This document shows, in pieces, positions 40,018 through 47,468 of a stretch of 64,000 bases of DNA (position 1 is the first letter of the stretch; every line of letters begins with the position of its first letter). Location: assembly GCA_015478725.1 (NCBI GenBank), contig JADMIG010000015.1, positions 1-64,000 on the forward strand, read 5' to 3'. A program made the position numbers and the translations under genes. Below the pieces are notes generated by a model. That model saw only the letters and a list, made by a program, of their open reading frames with translations. It was not told the DNA's origin and did no database searches. Source of the stretch: Chloroflexota bacterium. GTDB taxonomy: Bacteria; Chloroflexota; Limnocylindria; Limnocylindrales; CSP1-4.

Positions 40018-40770
40018 TCAGGGCGCGAGGCGGTGAGCGAGCTCGTCGCGCGCGATGACCCCGCGGGGCCCGGCGAGGACCACGCGACCCCGGTCCAGCA
40101 CCATCACGCCGTCGGCGAGATCCAGGGCGAACTGCAGGTGCTGCTCGACCAGCAGCAGGGCTGCGCCCTGCGCATATCCGCTGAGCGCCGCCAGAATCTC
40201 GTCGACCACGCCGTGCCAGACGCCCTCGGTCGGCTCGTCCATGATCAGGATCCGCGGCCGGGCGAGCAGAGCTCGTGCGATGGCCAGCATCTTGCGCTCG
40301 CCGCCACTCATGGTCCCGGCCTGCTGGCCGACGCGGCTGGCGAGCTTCGGAAACAGCTCGAACGCCTCCTCGATCCTGGCCGCGCTGCCCTTCGGACCGG
40401 CGCGAAGGCCGAGCAGCAGGTTCTCCCTCACGGTGAGACTCGCGAACACGCCCTGCTCCTGGGGGACGTAGCCCACGCCTCGACGGACGAGGCTCGCCGG
40501 CGGATGTCCGGCAACGTCCGTCCCGTCCAGGGTCACACGGCCCGCGGTGGGTCGGTTGTAGCCCATCAACGTCCGGAGCAGCGTGGTCTTGCCGGCGCCG
40601 TTGCGTCCAACGATCGCGATGGTCCCGACTCGCGGCACCGAGACGTCGACCCCGAACAGCACCTGGCTACCTCGATACCCACCGGATATGCCCTCGGCAC
40701 GGAGCACCGCCGGTGACTCGCCGACGGCGGGCACAACGGCCGACACAGAAGATGCGAAGAGGTCAGGCAC
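40018..40770 (-). CDS. livF: Branched-chain amino acid/amide-type ABC importer ATPase LivF
   Basis: A 250-aa LivF/UrtE-type ATPase: Walker A GRNGAGKTT, signature MSGGERKM, Walker B ILIMDEPTEG, switch LVEQHL. Compared with canonical LivF, Walker B runs EPTEGVWHGVVDE. The last gene of the importer operon. It overlaps livG by 8 nt. It would energise the LivH/LivM channel together with LivG. Confidence 0.93.
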   Translation of the reverse strand: MPDLFASSVSAVVPAVGESPAVLRAEGISGGYRGSQVLFGVDVSVPRVGTIAIVGRNGAGKTTLLRTLMGYNRPTAGRVTLDGTDVAGHPPASLVRRGVGYVPQEQGVFASLTVRENLLLGLRAGPKGSAARIEEAFELFPKLASRVGQQAGTMSGGERKMLAIARALLARPRILIMDEPTEGVWHGVVDEILAALSGYAQGAALLLVEQHLQFALDLADGVMVLDRGRVVLAGPRGVIARDELAHRLAP

Positions 40771-41512
40771 GGGTGAGGTAGACCTCCTGCACGTGCGCGT
40801 CGGCTTCGATCTCGGCCGGCGTACCCGTGGCGATGACCCGGCCCTGGTGGAGCACGCTGATCCGGTCGCAGAGACCGCGGATGAAGTCCAGGTCGTGCTC
40901 CACGATGAGAATGCCGCAGCTCTCCCGCGCCGCCCGGATCCGCGCTCCGGTTGTCAGGCGCTCCTCGTGACTCATGCCCGCGGTAGGCTCGTCGAGGAGC
41001 AGGACGGTGGGGCGCAGAGCCATCGCCATCGCGATCTCCAGCCACTGCCGCTGTCCGTGCGACAGCTCGCGGGCAAGCTGGCTCCGAGCTTCGGTGAGAT
41101 GGAAAGCCTCGAGCAGGTGGTCGATCCTCTCGGCGCATTGAGCCCGCGTTCGGGACAGCAGCAGGGATCGGAGCGGCGTCGTGGACTGGACCGCGAGCAG
41201 CAGGTTGTCGACGACCGTCTGGTCCAGGTAGACGCGGGCGAGCTGGAACTTGATCGAGATCCCCGCCCGCACCCGGGTCGATGGCTTGGCGTGCGTCACG
41301 TCGCGACCCTCCAGTCGCACAGACCCGGACGTGGCGGCGGTCCGACCCGAGATGACGTGGAGCAGCGTGCTCTTGCCGGAGCCGTTCGGTCCGATGAGGC
41401 CGACGACCTCACCGACATTCACGTCAAGGTCGGCGCTCTCCAGGGCGACGAGGGCACCGAAGGTCTTGCGGATGGCGCGAACCTCGAGCGCGGCCGCGTG
41501 CTCATCAGGCAC
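40763..41512 (-). CDS. livG: Branched-chain amino acid/amide-type ABC importer ATPase LivG
   Basis: A 249-aa LivG/UrtD-type ATPase: Walker A GPNGSGKST, signature LSHGQRQW (HGQ instead of GGQ, seen in UrtD/LivG), Walker B VLLLDEPTAGMSHEE and IVEHDLDFI. The Met-Ser-His after EPTAG is characteristic of UrtD-like members. The start GTG 41512 overlaps the livM stop by 8 nt; the frame is open further upstream but inside livM. Confidence 0.93.
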   Translation of the reverse strand: MPDEHAAALEVRAIRKTFGALVALESADLDVNVGEVVGLIGPNGSGKSTLLHVISGRTAATSGSVRLEGRDVTHAKPSTRVRAGISIKFQLARVYLDQTVVDNLLLAVQSTTPLRSLLLSRTRAQCAERIDHLLEAFHLTEARSQLARELSHGQRQWLEIAMAMALRPTVLLLDEPTAGMSHEERLTTGARIRAARESCGILIVEHDLDFIRGLCDRISVLHQGRVIATGTPAEIEADAHVQEVYLTRA

Positions 41513-42533
41513 CGCCGCCTCCCGGCGCGGAGCCGCGCGTACCGGCCGATGCAGCCCGCCGGACGCGACGCGGCGCGCGACGGCCGAGCAGGCCACCGGG
41601 CAGATACAGGATCGTGCCGAGGAGCAGCGCGCCGAGGACCACGGGCCAGAGTTGCGGGAGAACCTCCTGCACGCGTCCCCCGAAGACCTTAACCACGCCC
41701 ATCCCGAGCAGCGGCCCGATCAGCGTCCCGCGCCCACCGAGGACGACCCACAGCAGCACCTGCGTTGACAGGGCCACGCCCAGGAAGCCCGGGGAGACGA
41801 ACCCCTCCTCCAGAGCGTAGATCCCGCCGGCCATCCCTGCCAGGCCGGATGTCAGCGTGAACACAAGGATCTGGACCGACGTCCGCCGGTAGCCCAGGAA
41901 CTCGGCCCGTTCACCGTCGTCGCGGACGGCGCGCATGACGAGCCCGAACTGAGAACGGTTGAGCAGGTGGCCGGCGGCAAGAGCCAGCGCGAACAGCACC
42001 AGAATCGCGTAGTACATGGACGGGCCGTTGGAGAGGTCCAGTGGACCCAGCGTCGGGGCCGGGACGCCCGGAATCCCATTCGCGCTGCCGAGCACGTCCC
42101 AGCCGGAGGCGAGCTGCTCGGCAGCGTAGCCAAGGGCGAGGGTCACGAGGGCCACGTACAGCTCGCCGACCCTCGAGCCGACGAACAGGAACAGCCCCAC
42201 GAGGACGCCGGCAAGAGCGCCGGCAGCCAACCCGACGACGGACGCCAGGACCAGGTCGGTCATGCCGGCGTGGACTGCCAGCATCCCGACGGCGTAGGCG
42301 CCCGTGCCGAAGAACACCGCCTGCCCGAGCGTGAAGATCCCCGTGGACCCCCAGGCGAGGTCCGCGCTGAGGGCGAGGATGCCCAGGATCAGCGCTTGGG
42401 TGAGGACAATGACGTAGTAGTCGAGCCCCACCAGGGCAAAGACCGGCGGGACGATGGCCAGCAGGCCGACGAGGAGAACGACGACGACGCCTCCGTGCCG
42501 ACCTGCCAACCAGGTGCGCGGTCTCAGCCGCAC
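41505..42533 (-). CDS. livM: LivM-type ABC permease
   Basis: A 342-aa permease with about nine helices (GGVVVVLLVGLLAIVPPVFALV, IVLTQALILGILALSADLAWG, GQAVFFGTGAYAVGMLAV and so on). The cytoplasmic motif REDGERAEFLGYR-like (here RDDGERAEFLGYRRTSVQILVFTLTSGLAGMAGGIYAL) is typical of LivM/UrtC. The GTG at 42533 overlaps the binding-protein stop by 10 nt, coupling them. The longer frame to 42665 is inside the binding-protein gene. Confidence 0.9.
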   Translation of the reverse strand: MRLRPRTWLAGRHGGVVVVLLVGLLAIVPPVFALVGLDYYVIVLTQALILGILALSADLAWGSTGIFTLGQAVFFGTGAYAVGMLAVHAGMTDLVLASVVGLAAGALAGVLVGLFLFVGSRVGELYVALVTLALGYAAEQLASGWDVLGSANGIPGVPAPTLGPLDLSNGPSMYYAILVLFALALAAGHLLNRSQFGLVMRAVRDDGERAEFLGYRRTSVQILVFTLTSGLAGMAGGIYALEEGFVSPGFLGVALSTQVLLWVVLGGRGTLIGPLLGMGVVKVFGGRVQEVLPQLWPVVLGALLLGTILYLPGGLLGRRAPRRVRRAASAGTRGSAPGGGGA

Positions 42534-43744
42534 TGACCCGTGGGATCGATAGCGCCGAGATCCTGGAGGATCTTGACCGAGGCGTCCGCCTGCATCTGGC
42601 CAAGCCGCATCTTGAGCGTGCAGTGGCGGGTGGCAGGCTTGAAGGCCGCGGGGCCGCCGACGCACTCGGTCAGCGACGCCGAATCCATAGCGGCATTCAC
42701 CTTGGCGAGGTCGAGCGAGCCGGCCTTCTCCACCGCGACCTTCCAGAGATGCAGGCCACGGTACCAGGCCGGGCTGTTGAACGTCGCGGCGAAGACGCCG
42801 TCCGGATACTTCGCCTTGAACTCGGCTACCTTCTTCACGGTGAAGTCATCGTTGCCGCCGCTGGCGAAATAGTCCTGCGCGCAGAGGATGCCGGCCACAT
42901 CGGGGCCGAAGAGCGCGTTGACGCCCTCGTCGTAGAGAGAGGCGAGGTGTAGTCCCGTGTACCCACCACCGACGACGCCCTTCACGAACTGGACCGACGT
43001 CGGCAGCACGGTCACGTCGAAGATGGCGTCCGCCTTGGCGGCGAGGGCCTTGGTGACGAGCGGCGACGCGTCGGTCGCGTTGAGCGGGAGGTAGTCCTCG
43101 CCAACGATCGTGCCGCCAGCGGCCTCGACCTTCGCCCGGACCTCTTTCAGCATGTTCCGCGGGTAGAGATAGTCCGCCCCGCAGAGATAGAAGGACTTGG
43201 CGCCCTTGGACATCGCGTAGGCGACCGTCGGGTCGACCTGCTGGTTGGGCACGGCGCCGTCACTCCAGACATTCGGGGTGCACTCGCCGCCCTCGTAGGA
43301 GGCCGGCCAGATGTAGATGGTCTTTCCCGTCGTGGCGATGATCCCCTTGATCGCCTCGCGCATGTTGCTCGCGACACCGCCGATGACGACGTCGACCTTG
43401 TCCTTCTCGACCAGCTGCCGGGCGACCGTCGCCCCGACCGCCGGGTCGGTCGCGCTGTCAACGAGGACCATCTGGAGCTGGCGGCCGAGCACGCCGCCCG
43501 CCGCGTTGATCTCGTCGATGGTGAACTGGGCGACCTGCTGGTTAGACTTGCCGACGACGCCGAAGGCGCCGGTGATGTCGGTGAGGACGCCCACCTTGAT
43601 CGGGCCGGACGATCCCGCGCCGGGCGAACAGGCCGCCAATACGCTGCTGAGCGACCCGCCGAGACCGAGCGCCGCGCCACCCAGAGCCAATCCCTTCAGC
43701 ACCTGGCGCCGCGACAGGTCCCGGGTCATCCGATCGTTGCTCAT
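42524..43744 (-). CDS. AmiC/UrtA-like solute-binding protein, predicted Tat-exported lipoprotein
   Basis: A 406-aa periplasmic-binding protein type I. The leader has the twin-arginine motif SRRQVLKG and then lipobox LAAC (SVLAACSPG), so it is predicted as a Tat-exported lipoprotein. The mature domain matches amide/urea receptors (AmiC, UrtA, FmdD) rather than leucine receptors: ITGAFGVVGKSNQQVAQFTIDEINAAGG, IWPASYEGGECTPNVWSDGAVPNQQ and FYLCGADYLYPRNM. Short-chain amides, urea or acetylated amines are plausible ligands. Purine-rich GGGAG/GAGG lies 4-8 nt before ATG 43744. It lies between the two permease genes. Confidence 0.9.
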   Translation of the reverse strand: MSNDRMTRDLSRRQVLKGLALGGAALGLGGSLSSVLAACSPGAGSSGPIKVGVLTDITGAFGVVGKSNQQVAQFTIDEINAAGGVLGRQLQMVLVDSATDPAVGATVARQLVEKDKVDVVIGGVASNMREAIKGIIATTGKTIYIWPASYEGGECTPNVWSDGAVPNQQVDPTVAYAMSKGAKSFYLCGADYLYPRNMLKEVRAKVEAAGGTIVGEDYLPLNATDASPLVTKALAAKADAIFDVTVLPTSVQFVKGVVGGGYTGLHLASLYDEGVNALFGPDVAGILCAQDYFASGGNDDFTVKKVAEFKAKYPDGVFAATFNSPAWYRGLHLWKVAVEKAGSLDLAKVNAAMDSASLTECVGGPAAFKPATRHCTLKMRLGQMQADASVKILQDLGAIDPTGQCG

Positions 43745-43774
43745 CGCACCTCTCCCTTTGTGTCTGTGGTTCCG

Positions 43775-44626
43775 TTATCTGCTGACCAATCCCGTCGGCC
43801 GCAGCCGCATGAACACAATCGCCCCGAGGATCACGACGACCTGGGCGGCGACCGGGCCGATCAGGGCCGGCACGAGGCCGGCCGGGATCCCGATCGCGAT
43901 GGCGCCGAGAAGCGGCCCCTCCAAGGAGCCGAGCCCGCCGACCATGACCGCGATGAACATCGGGACGAGGTTGTCGAGCCCGAGGTCGGGATAGAGCGTC
44001 AGGTTGGGGACGATGAGCGCCCCGGCGAACCCGGCCAGGCCGGCGCCGACCGCGTAGGTCCCCGCGTACATCCGGCTCGTGGAGATTCCCGTCGCCTCGG
44101 CCAGCTCCCGGTTGTCCAAGGTCGCTCGGACGCGGAGCCCGAGCGAGCTGCGGCCCAGGGCGATGTAGGCGGCCACCACCACGACGATCGTCACGCCGAT
44201 GATGACGAGTCGCCATGCCGGGAGGCTCGCCCCGAGGAGGTCGAAGCTCCCGTGAAGCGGGGCTGGGACCGGGGCACCCTGGGAGGTCATCATCGCCCGG
44301 ACCACCTCCCGGATGACGAAGCCGACGGCGAACGTGGCCAGCAGCGCTCCCGCCGGGCTGGCGTAGAAGCGCCGGATGACCAGCCGCTCCAGGAGCAGCC
44401 CGAACGCCCCGACGACGATGGGTGCCAGGAGGATGCCCAGGAGGACGCTCCCGAACCACGTGTAGGTCAGGAACGCGGTCACGGCTCCCAGCAGCACGAA
44501 TTCGCCCTGGCAGAGGTTGAAGATCCGCATCATCCCGACGATTACGGCCATGCCGAGCACGAGCAGGAGGAGAATCGACGTCACGCTGAGCGTGTCGAAG
44601 ATCACCCGGACCAGAGTTGGGCTCAC
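43775..44626 (-). CDS. livH: LivH-type ABC permease
   Basis: A 283-aa permease with about eight helices (LSVTSILLLLVLGMAVIVGMMRIFNLCQGEFVLLGAVTAF...). The cytoplasmic loop RVRATLDNRELAEATGISTSRMYAGTYAVGAGLAGFAGAL is the LivH/UrtB ATPase-docking region. It starts at GTG 44626. First gene of the operon livH, binding protein, livM, livG, livF, 30 bp upstream of the binding-protein gene. The first position of the permease differs from urea operons, where the receptor gene leads. Confidence 0.93.
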   Translation of the reverse strand: MSPTLVRVIFDTLSVTSILLLLVLGMAVIVGMMRIFNLCQGEFVLLGAVTAFLTYTWFGSVLLGILLAPIVVGAFGLLLERLVIRRFYASPAGALLATFAVGFVIREVVRAMMTSQGAPVPAPLHGSFDLLGASLPAWRLVIIGVTIVVVVAAYIALGRSSLGLRVRATLDNRELAEATGISTSRMYAGTYAVGAGLAGFAGALIVPNLTLYPDLGLDNLVPMFIAVMVGGLGSLEGPLLGAIAIGIPAGLVPALIGPVAAQVVVILGAIVFMRLRPTGLVSR

Positions 44627-45018
44627 GGACGCGATGGCCTCATGTGGGTTCGCCCATCATCTTGAGCGTGTCGCCAGGTCGGCCGCCTGCGCGCTGGACC
44701 TGCGCCTGGTGGTCGTTGAGCGCTTGGTGGAGCATTGCGCCTGCCATCCCGCCGTTTGGCTGATCTCATTGCAGTAGGGCCGAGACCCCGACGCTCGCCA
44801 CTTGGACCAGAAACCAGGGCGGCTGATCCGGATCGAGCCCTGCAATCGCAACCTCCTCCATGGCCCCGCGCCGAATCCTGGTCGCGCGGGGCGCACGGGG
44901 TCCGATCTTCCCCGATGCCATCGAAGTCTGGCGGCCGTCAGCACGACGGCAATCCGTCGAATGACGGATGTAGGCGCTCATCCTTGGGTCCGGCCGGACG
45001 GTTGGCGAACCTGTTCAG
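44627..45018. other. Region between importer operon and its regulator
   Basis: About 390 bp without a credible gene. The 19-bp operator-like element (44952-44970) lies here, some 330 bp before livH. No convincing -10 was found for livH on the minus strand: TTCGAT at 44925-44920 is weak. A long leader is possible. Confidence 0.45.
44952..44970. promoter_or_regulatory. 19-bp operator-like element, copy 1 (livH side)
   Basis: ATCCGTCGAATGACGGATG contains a perfect dyad ATCCGTC-GAAT-GACGGAT (44952-44969). It differs at only two of 19 positions from the element at 46209-46227 on the other side of the LuxR-type regulator gene. Probable binding site of that regulator. Confidence 0.65.
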
Positions 45019-46146
45019 TCAGCCGCCGGCCTGGCCGCCGAGCTCCGCATCGCTGGATCGGACCCGGAGGAGCCCCTGCTCGACCGCGAACGCAGCCGCG
45101 CCGGCCCGGCTCGGCAGGCCCAACTTCTGGAAAACGCGCTCCAGGTGCGTCGCCACGGTCCTCGGACTCAGTCCGAAGTGAAGGGCGATCTCCCCGTTCG
45201 AGAGGCCACACGCCACGAGCGTCAGGACGTCGAGCTCGCGAGCGGTCAGCGCGTACGGAAGCACTGTGGCCGAGGCGGTCAGGAGGGCGACGTCTTCGAG
45301 GCCAGACGGATTGGCTCGGACCCGGAAGATCTCAACGCGCTGCCAGCCGTGCGCTGGGTCGAGCCAGAGGAAGCGCCGGCGAGCCTGCTGGCGCGCCAGC
45401 AGCTGGCGAGCGAGGTCGACTAGTGGCGGTGTCGAGCCGAGCACAGGGCCTACGCTCCGGCCCTTGAGCTCCACGAGCTCTCCGGACTGGGTGACCGCGG
45501 CGGCAGAGGCACCCGCCTCCGCCAGCGACGCGAGCCAACCAGCCGAGCGGGTCGCATCCGTCACGAGGGCGAGCAGGCTCCCGAGTTCGTCAAAGAGCGC
45601 TAGCGTATCGTCGGTCGGCGTCGTGCTCGTCGTCGTGTTCAGGTTCAGCACACCGGTGTAGCGCCCGTCCTCGGTGAACAGGCAGGCCGTCATCCCCTCG
45701 TCGTAGCCGGCCGGGCTGAAGACGTGACGAGGCGCATAGGTAGCCCGGTAGTCGAACGGCGCAGAGCCCCACCGCAGCGGCCGGCGGATCTTGTGAGCGC
45801 GACGAAAGCCGATATCACCGGCGGCGTTCAGGTACGCGAGCGTCGAGTCGGCGTATCCCTCGTTCGCCAGCGTCCGGTGGGTCCGACCGATCGGGTCCCA
45901 GATCGAGAAGGCGGCGGCGGCGAATGGGACGAGATCGGCGACGGCCTCCAGGATGCGCGCCGCGAGTTCGTCGGGCGGCCTCGGCTCGGCAAGCCCCCTG
46001 GCGACGCGCGCCAGTACCGCGATCTCGCGGGCGACGGTTCCGCTTGCCCCCGATCCGGTCGTGGCCTCCACCGCGGGCGCCTCGCAGTCTCCGCTGGCGC
46101 TCCACGGCCGAGCGGATGAGGCGCCATGTATACCATGCTGCGCCAT
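45019..46146 (-). CDS. GAF-domain LuxR-family transcriptional regulator
   Basis: A 375-aa regulator. The N-terminal half (about 40-205) looks like a GAF small-molecule sensor (ILEAVADLVPFAAAAFSIWD...GVLNLNTTTST). The C-terminal LuxR HTH reads LTARELDVLTLVACGLSNGEIALHFGLSPRTVATHLERVFQKLGLPSRAGAA. There is no receiver domain, so it is ligand-controlled rather than phosphorylated. It sits between the amide-type importer and a divergent HDAC-like gene, with a 19-bp element on both sides; it likely controls both in response to substrate. ATG 46146; TACGGC about 27 nt upstream is a possible -10. Confidence 0.87.
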   Translation of the reverse strand: MAQHGIHGASSARPWSASGDCEAPAVEATTGSGASGTVAREIAVLARVARGLAEPRPPDELAARILEAVADLVPFAAAAFSIWDPIGRTHRTLANEGYADSTLAYLNAAGDIGFRRAHKIRRPLRWGSAPFDYRATYAPRHVFSPAGYDEGMTACLFTEDGRYTGVLNLNTTTSTTPTDDTLALFDELGSLLALVTDATRSAGWLASLAEAGASAAAVTQSGELVELKGRSVGPVLGSTPPLVDLARQLLARQQARRRFLWLDPAHGWQRVEIFRVRANPSGLEDVALLTASATVLPYALTARELDVLTLVACGLSNGEIALHFGLSPRTVATHLERVFQKLGLPSRAGAAAFAVEQGLLRVRSSDAELGGQAGG

Positions 46147-46208
46147 CGATCCCGAGTCCCACCCAGGTGGCCGTAGACATCCCGGAGTTCAGGCCGCACC
46201 CATCCAGC

Positions 46209-46227
46209 ATCCGTCGAATGGCCGATG
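46209..46227. promoter_or_regulatory. 19-bp operator-like element, copy 2 (amidohydrolase side)
   Basis: ATCCGTCGAATGGCCGATG matches copy 1 at 17 of 19 positions. Its centre (46218) is about 43 bp upstream of the start site predicted from the -10 at 46249-46254, the position where LuxR-type activators often act (class II). It is also upstream of the divergent luxR-type gene. Confidence 0.6.
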
Positions 46228-46254
46228 GCCGAGCCGTCCCCAGGGCGCTACGGT
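46226..46254 (+). promoter_or_regulatory. Predicted promoter of the acetylpolyamine amidohydrolase-like gene
   Basis: -10 TACGGT (46249-46254) with a poor -35 (TGGCCG, 46226-46231; 17-nt spacer). A weak -35 next to an activator site fits activator dependence. Predicted start near 46261. Confidence 0.5.
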
Positions 46255-46257
46255 CAC

Positions 46258-46301
46258 GGCCAACGAACGGCCGACGAACGGCCAACGAACGGCCGACGGT
46301 T
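46258..46301 (+). repeat. 11-bp tandem repeats in the amidohydrolase leader
   Basis: GGCCAACGAAC, GGCCGACGAAC, GGCCAACGAAC and a partial GGCCGACGGTT run head to tail with 11-bp period. They begin at the predicted transcription start and end 34 nt before the start codon. The period of about one helical turn would suit a phased protein array or a repeated RNA element. Confidence 0.7.
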
Positions 46302-46334: not shown

Positions 46335-47468
46335 ATGACGATGGAGCTACTGCGGACGGGGCTTGCCTACCACCCGCGATTCCTTGCCCACGACACGGGT
46401 CTAGCCCTCGTCAGTGCCCCGGTGCCGGTCGATGGACCGTTTCAGGTGACGCCGCACCCTGAGGGCCCGTATCGTGTGCAGGCGGTTCACCGCACGCTCG
46501 AGATGACAGGGTTGCTCGAGCGGCTCACTCCAGTCGCGTTCGAGATCGTCGACGACGACGTCCTGGCGCTTGTCCACACCGACGGCTACATCGAGCACCT
46601 CAAGATGGCCTGCGCGACTGGAGCATCCGAGGCGGGGTCCTACGTCCCGATTTGCACCGCATCCGAGGAAATCGCCCGCCTCGCCGTCGGAGCCACGATC
46701 GCGACCGTGGACGCGGTCCTTGACGGCACCCTCTCGAACGCCTTCGCTCTGGTCCGACCACCCGGCCATCACGCTCCGGCCGACGCCGCTATGGGGTACT
46801 GCCTCTACAACAACGTGGCCATCGCCGCCCGTCACGCCCGCCAGCGTGGTGTCGAACGGATCGCGATCGTGGACTGGGACGTTCATCATGGCAACGGGAC
46901 CGAGTCCATCTTCCTCGATGATCCGTCCGTTCTGTACATCTCAACCCACCAGGATGCCTGGTATCCGGCCGACACTGGTCAGGCGGAGGTCGTGGGCAAG
47001 GGTGCCGGAATGGGCTTCAACGTGAATATCCCGCTCCCCCCGGGGAGCGGGGATGCGACCTACGCGCGCGCATACGAGCGCCTCGTCGCGCCGATCCTGC
47101 GCGAGTTCCGACCCGACCTCGTCCTCGTGTCGGCCGGCCAGGACCCGAATGCCTACGATCCGATGGGCCGGATGGCCGTCAGCTCGGACGGCTTCCGGAC
47201 GATCGCCCGCCGCGTCCTGGACACCGCCACCGACGTGGCTGGCGGCCGCGTGGCCATAGTGCTCGAGGGCGGGTACGGCGGCTATGCGCCCGTCTGCACA
47301 TGGTCGATCATCGAGGAACTCGCCGGCTGGCGGAGTGGGGTGGAGGACCCATACCGATCATGGTACGGGGCTACTCCGCCCGCGACGCTTGTTGCGCCGG
47401 AGGCGGAGGCGGCACTGGCCCGAGCGGCAGGGATCCAGAGCCGGACCTGGCACGGCGTCTCCGTCTGA
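46335..47468 (+). CDS. Histone deacetylase/acetylpolyamine amidohydrolase family protein
   Basis: A 377-aa zinc amidohydrolase. HDAC-fold signatures: PPGHHAPAD (about 145), the metal pair in DWDVHHGNGTE (Asp182 and His184), Asp270 in SAGQDPNAYDPMG, and the catalytic Tyr314 in EGGYGGY. All catalytic elements are present. Bacterial members remove acetyl or other acyl groups from polyamines, acetoin-like compounds or small amides (family knowledge). The ATG at 46335 has GGGGAG 6 nt upstream; a second ATG follows at 46341. It is divergent from the GAF-LuxR regulator and opposite an AmiC-type importer, suggesting it acts on imported acylated amines or amides. Confidence 0.92.
   Translation: MTMELLRTGLAYHPRFLAHDTGLALVSAPVPVDGPFQVTPHPEGPYRVQAVHRTLEMTGLLERLTPVAFEIVDDDVLALVHTDGYIEHLKMACATGASEAGSYVPICTASEEIARLAVGATIATVDAVLDGTLSNAFALVRPPGHHAPADAAMGYCLYNNVAIAARHARQRGVERIAIVDWDVHHGNGTESIFLDDPSVLYISTHQDAWYPADTGQAEVVGKGAGMGFNVNIPLPPGSGDATYARAYERLVAPILREFRPDLVLVSAGQDPNAYDPMGRMAVSSDGFRTIARRVLDTATDVAGGRVAIVLEGGYGGYAPVCTWSIIEELAGWRSGVEDPYRSWYGATPPATLVAPEAEAALARAAGIQSRTWHGVSV

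Follow-up and report, generated by a model that had tools for sequence, protein, structure and literature searches.

Operator-like dyads on both sides of a GAF-LuxR regulator gene, between a UrtBACDE-like importer operon and a gene for an HDAC-like deacylase

The window (the whole stretch of DNA that was analysed, 64,000 nucleotides) contains an importer operon, a regulator gene and a deacylase gene, with an operator-like element in the gap on each side of the regulator gene:

40018 to 40770, minus strand: ATPase 2, UrtE-like (profile matches)
40763 to 41518, minus strand: ATPase 1, UrtD-like (start uncertain)
41505 to 42524, minus strand: permease 2, UrtC-like (start uncertain)
42524 to 43744, minus strand: receptor, UrtA/AmiC-like (match to a Tat signal, and a LAAC lipobox)
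43775 to 44626, minus strand: permease 1, UrtB-like (profile matches)
44925 to 44930, minus strand: CAGACT, weak candidate -10 of a putative importer promoter, with a spacing like that of the LAL promoters of the family
44952 to 44969, minus strand: operator-like dyad 1, ATCCGTC-N4-GACGGAT (perfect; importer operon downstream)
45019 to 46146, minus strand: GAF-LuxR transcriptional regulator (GerE, 1.3e-16; an alternative GTG start at 46071 is possible)
46209 to 46226, plus strand: operator-like dyad 2, ATCCGTC-N4-GGCCGAT (five of seven pairs; divergent gap between regulator and HDAC genes)
46249 to 46254, plus strand: TACGGT, candidate -10 of a putative HDAC promoter
46335 to 47468, plus strand: HDAC-superfamily zinc deacylase, HDAH/PA3774/DmhA-like (PF00850, 7.4e-92; PDB matches)

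The importer genes (40018-44626, minus strand) are in a UrtBACDE-like order. With a type I receptor, two BPD_transp_2 permeases and two ABC ATPases encoded in one operon, this is a HAAT-type amide/branched-chain importer. The UrtABCDE urea importer has the same five-part HAAT layout and is the best named match for all five proteins. However, all five fall below the curated cut-offs of the urea-importer models (NCBIfam TIGR03407-03411): the bit scores and cut-offs are 229/493 for UrtA, 202/250 for UrtB, 172/296 for UrtC, 250/304 for UrtD and 223/286 for UrtE. Also, eight pocket residues are reported to be strictly conserved in urea receptors (PMC10392092), and four of these are changed in our alignment of the window receptor: S122, E146, Y190 and S274 are kept, but W120 is replaced by V, Y141 by W and Q144 by S, and N246 is lost. 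On both grounds, we rejected a urea system, and urea, which the original prediction had listed among the ligands to try, is disfavoured (PMC10392092).

The window receptor also shares its fold and a DYxYPR motif with AmiC, the amide receptor of the Pseudomonas amidase operon. Unlike AmiC, which is an antiterminator controller, it is probably an exported Tat lipoprotein that serves the importer. Our receptor search also gave a protein with 39% identity in the genome G086; its gene adjoins an amidase-like gene (L158, on G086:C164). This neighbor hints at amide ligands for the group to which the window receptor belongs.

The deacylase has a Hist_deacetyl domain, zinc ligands, a His-His dyad and a GGY tyrosine, which place it in the HDAC superfamily as an HDAH/HdaH-like (class IIb-like) protein. 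Residues H145, H146, D182, H184, D270 and Y314 are invariant in the alignment, and we take their zinc-binding and catalytic roles to be those established for the family. Its PDB matches are to HDAH (5.8e-83), other HDAH-named entries (3.5e-82) and the ApaH entry 3men (8.8e-38); a search for PDB entry 8tg1 found nothing relevant. The enzyme is nearest to HDAH/PA3774/DmhA/PrpH-type enzymes and HDAC6, and it is far from the acetylpolyamine amidohydrolases. PA3774, a member of the HDAH group, leaves acetylpolyamines uncleaved (PMC4784309). We rejected an acetylpolyamine system because of the clade of the enzyme, HDAH/PA3774-like and not ApaH; this clade disfavours acetylpolyamine, which the original prediction had also listed among the ligands to try (PMC4784309). 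Bacterial HDAC-like enzymes of sub-cluster 1b can act on small amides, and this sub-cluster (HdaH, dimethoate hydrolase DmhA and propanil hydrolase PrpH) holds the closest bacterial solved relatives of the window enzyme (PMC11532494). The window enzyme differs from them in that its gene sits beside a HAAT importer and a LuxR gene; in the text of PMC11532494, we found no mention of an ABC transporter, a gene cluster or genomic context.

The regulator (P0001) has a GerE HTH that scores 60.4 bits, against a cut-off of 23.5, and is of the LuxR/NarL type. The GAF_2 match of its GAF-like N-terminus (19.9 bits) is below the Pfam cut-off of 28.6, and that of an orthologue (31.9 bits) is above it. A structure model built from the one sequence was unusable (pLDDT of 37).

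The elements around this gene had been described as two 19-mers that agree at 17 positions, the first of them a perfect dyad, and this description holds. The 19-mers at 44952-44970 and 46209-46227 differ by two mismatches and bracket the single GAF-LuxR gene (45019-46146, minus strand). In the first element, 44952-44969 is a perfect 7-4-7 dyad (ATCCGTC GAAT GACGGAT); the 19th base lies outside the symmetry, so the symmetric unit is 18 bp. The second element (46209-46226) reads ATCCGTC GAAT GGCCGAT, and five of its seven arm positions pair. The first element lies 49 bp past the stop codon of the regulator and upstream of the importer, whose first gene starts at 44626 on the minus strand, while the second is within the gap between the regulator (minus strand) and the divergent HDAC gene, which starts at 46335 on the plus strand.

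We checked for random occurrence of the motif elsewhere, using pattern searches for all genome-wide tests. With up to three mismatches allowed, 0.03 matches are expected by chance per shuffled 64-kb window; the 3.4-Mb genome has three sites, two of which are the pair described here, and the reversed pattern, searched against the whole genome as a control, had no matches. A looser dyad pattern (ATCSGYM-N4-KRCSGAT) occurs at six places in the genome. None of 20,000 dinucleotide shuffles, each applied to both gaps as a pair, produced a perfect dyad in one gap together with a partner in the other that differs at two or fewer positions. These results support a pair of elements that is non-random and resembles LuxR-type operators.

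Candidate promoters lie next to both elements. CAGACT (44930-44925, minus strand) is 21 nt from site 1, and TACGGT is 22 nt from site 2, as far as T[CG]TACT lies from the dyad in each of the three relatives described below. Both candidate -10 sequences are weak, and the importer starts about 300 nt from site 1. A sigma-70 promoter scan found nothing, and the importer leader of about 300 nt had no credible riboswitch match in Rfam. A 51-codon ORF with a low coding score (44766-44921, minus strand) begins a few nucleotides past the candidate importer -10; it may encode a leader peptide, or may be no gene at all. Past dyad 2 and ahead of the HDAC start codon, GGCCAACGAAC/GGCCGACGAAC units form a short tandem repeat (46256-46300).

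The same gene set was sought in related genomes, as the original prediction had proposed. Across 177 genomes of the class, a protein search found relatives of the GAF-LuxR regulator only in G014, G015 and G016, and the close relatives of the receptor (67-71% identity) are in the same three genomes. GAF-LuxR, one or more HDACs and the importer occur together in each of them. The importer proteins are 66-80% identical to those of the window; the HDAC and LuxR proteins are just 34-42% identical (34-36% for the regulator orthologues). In G015, the genes run in one direction: LuxR, HDAC, HDAC and then UrtB-, A-, C-, D- and E-like genes. The order in G014 is the same as far as the contig end, so that two of the three relatives have a co-directional single run; in G016, the set is split over two contigs, with UrtA/UrtB and an HDAC end on C734. 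In the HDAC tree, the window enzyme branches apart from the HDAC pair of G014 and G015, with modest support for its position (0.76), so the HDAC may have been replaced. A scan of a genome collection for the HDAC gave one short irrelevant match, and the conservation of the set was assessed within the phylum.

The exact 19-mer is absent from the orthologous loci, but the 7-4-7 architecture and the outer ATC-G...C-GAT are kept. In all three relatives, the gap between the LuxR and HDAC genes contains a perfect 18-bp dyad, ATCGGCA-N4-TGCCGAT (with the sequence ATCGGCAGGTCTGCCGAT, ATCGGCAGAACTGCCGAT or ATCGGCAGGACTGCCGAT), which occurs once per genome. When the gap of G016 is aligned to those of G014 and G015, most of it has diverged, but the dyad is conserved and so is a CGTGT[CG]TACT block that lies 22 nt past it. 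Our best argument comes from the layout: G015 has one transcription unit and one dyad, and the window has two units and two dyads, which suggests that the dyads serve the importer and the HDAC together. The full set was seen in four genomes only, two of which are very similar in this region. The paired elements are probably a real operator pair at a conserved but rare locus. G016 also has a second dyad, ATCGGCAGGGCGACCGAT (G016:C540:1823-1840, L087). It lies in the gap that separates the GAF-LuxR gene from a urease gamma gene in divergent orientation, and after the gamma gene comes one for a urease beta-alpha fusion, whose metal-site motifs are unusual.

The genome's third site (contig C2, 80142) lies directly before the gene for a LAL-type regulator of 962 amino acids with AAA_16 and GerE domains, which is divergent from the gene for a SCO4226-like small protein. 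A search for ATCSGTCGAATGNCSGAT with at most one mismatch gave matches in 37 of 107 genomes of the family and none in the control. Outside the window's own genome, 21 of 44 sites were automatically flagged as upstream of a LAL gene. Perfect-dyad sites are mostly upstream of LAL genes, but no site with five pairs or fewer is, and such single sites are probably due to chance; that dyad 2 of the window has only five pairs counts against the operator reading. In 20 of the 21 LAL boxes that were aligned, the C2 site among them, a TA[CGA]A[CA]T hexamer follows the dyad at 20-23 nt, whereas TA[CGA]ACT has a background frequency of 0.07% at these distances. If the hexamer is the -10, then the LAL dyad is centered near -41.5, which is an activator position. 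The LAL promoters at L007:8001 and at family loci L041-L084 share a fixed dyad, 20 nt, TA[CG]ACT and a start codon about 10 nt on, which makes them candidates for leaderless promoters with an autoregulatory box.

Might the window sites belong to the regulon of the C2 LAL-type regulator, and not (or not only) to that of the GAF-LuxR? The third site is this regulator's own promoter box; the window sites have the GAAT core and the GTC/GAC inner arms that mark LAL boxes throughout the family, and the relatives' GAF-LuxR dyads do not share these; and in a sample of 400 genomes of the phylum, exact matches to the LAL box were found only in the window's own family. However, the dyad beside the GAF-LuxR gene in G014-G016 has another sequence, and a search of that locus gave no LAL-type box, so the window dyad needs no LAL. 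Furthermore, the outer arms of the window sites are ATCC, and nearly all LAL boxes have ATCG. The HTH of P0001 is 53% identical to those of the relatives' GAF-LuxR proteins and 35% identical to that of the LAL, so the core common to the window sites and the LAL boxes requires either convergence or LAL binding. We consider a LAL regulon possible, but we doubt it. In favor of the GAF-LuxR reading, H[LV]E is present in just two of seven GerE recognition helices read from the window's genome, that of P0001 and that of the LAL (four further, mostly weaker GerE matches were left out).

Two other explanations are very improbable. The first dyad might act for the regulator gene as a terminator or as a hairpin in its RNA, since it lies just past the stop codon, as does the dyad of the relatives, and its transcript could fold into a stem of 7 bp with a loop of 4 nt; but there is no T tract, a terminator scan found no terminator-like site, there was no Rfam match above chance, the second copy is upstream of both of its neighbors, and the related LAL boxes are promoter-proximal. 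Chance or a historical duplication without function would fit the loss of the exact 19-mer in the relatives and the imperfect second site, but it would not account for the result of the shuffles, for the fact that two of only three sites in the genome fall in these gaps, or for the dyad that each of three relatives has in the corresponding gap.

Most likely, activators of the LuxR family bind the elements and so coordinate the importer and the HDAC, and the adjacent GAF-LuxR is more likely to be the binder, with the LAL as a co-regulator or alternative. The fuller reading, with one site per unit, joint switching and the GAF-LuxR as the likeliest regulator, seems to us somewhat better than even. 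From what was computed (the sites, the conserved gene set, the dyads at orthologous places and the promoter geometry of the LAL boxes), we infer the binder, the activation, the ligand and the reaction as follows. A LuxR-family activator (GerE-type HTH) would bind both 19-bp elements, one per transcription unit, and switch on the UrtBACDE-like ABC importer and the HDAC-superfamily deacylase together. Bound as a dimer to the 7-4-7 dyad just upstream of the -10, it would take the place of a -35 element (class II activation, with a center at about -41.5 to -43.5). This activator would most likely be the GAF-LuxR encoded between the sites, whose GAF-like domain may sense an intracellular signal; the LAL-type LuxR of the genome may use the sites as well or instead. 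A small amide or N-acyl compound would enter through the importer and have its amide bond hydrolyzed by the HDAC. Known LuxR/NarL- and LAL-type regulators with dyad boxes near -41.5 also have a GerE HTH and, as proposed for the window, a dyad about 20 nt upstream of the -10; here, in contrast, the window's sensor is GAF-like, and the half-site ATCSGYM differs between the two regulator types.

The original prediction of a self-contained system that senses, imports and deacylates an amide or acetylated amine thus stands in part. The gene set and the operator-like dyads agree with it, urea and acetylpolyamine do not, and an amide or N-acyl compound is a plausible substrate. We doubt that the system is self-contained, since its core motif also serves as the promoter box of a different regulator, the LAL-type LuxR, throughout the family and at one other place in this genome. 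The locus is a variant of known parts, new in combination, and is probably a small, real uptake-and-deacylation system. In agreement with the original prediction, to which no described system with exactly these parts was known, we found no description of the HDAC-LuxR-importer set in the open-access literature, although this absence is weak evidence.

To our knowledge, most bacterial HDAC-like enzymes lack known substrates. A dedicated importer and regulator beside the HDAC suggest that its substrate is a small amide taken up from outside and not a protein, and the ligand of the receptor could directly name this substrate. The locus also offers an operator code for LuxR-type regulators that can be put to the test, in a family that has received little study. 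More tentatively, and with well under even confidence, we suggest an undescribed LuxR-activated catabolic module in which a dedicated HAAT importer feeds an HDAC-superfamily amidohydrolase, with different importers in the phylum and an operator code in common with a LAL-type regulator. In family f22 of the same phylum (L134, L135 and L136), an HDAC gene directly adjoins, or overlaps with, the gene for the second permease of another HAAT importer. The f22 importer is 26-40% identical to that of the window, and the f22 HDACs branch apart from the window HDAC.
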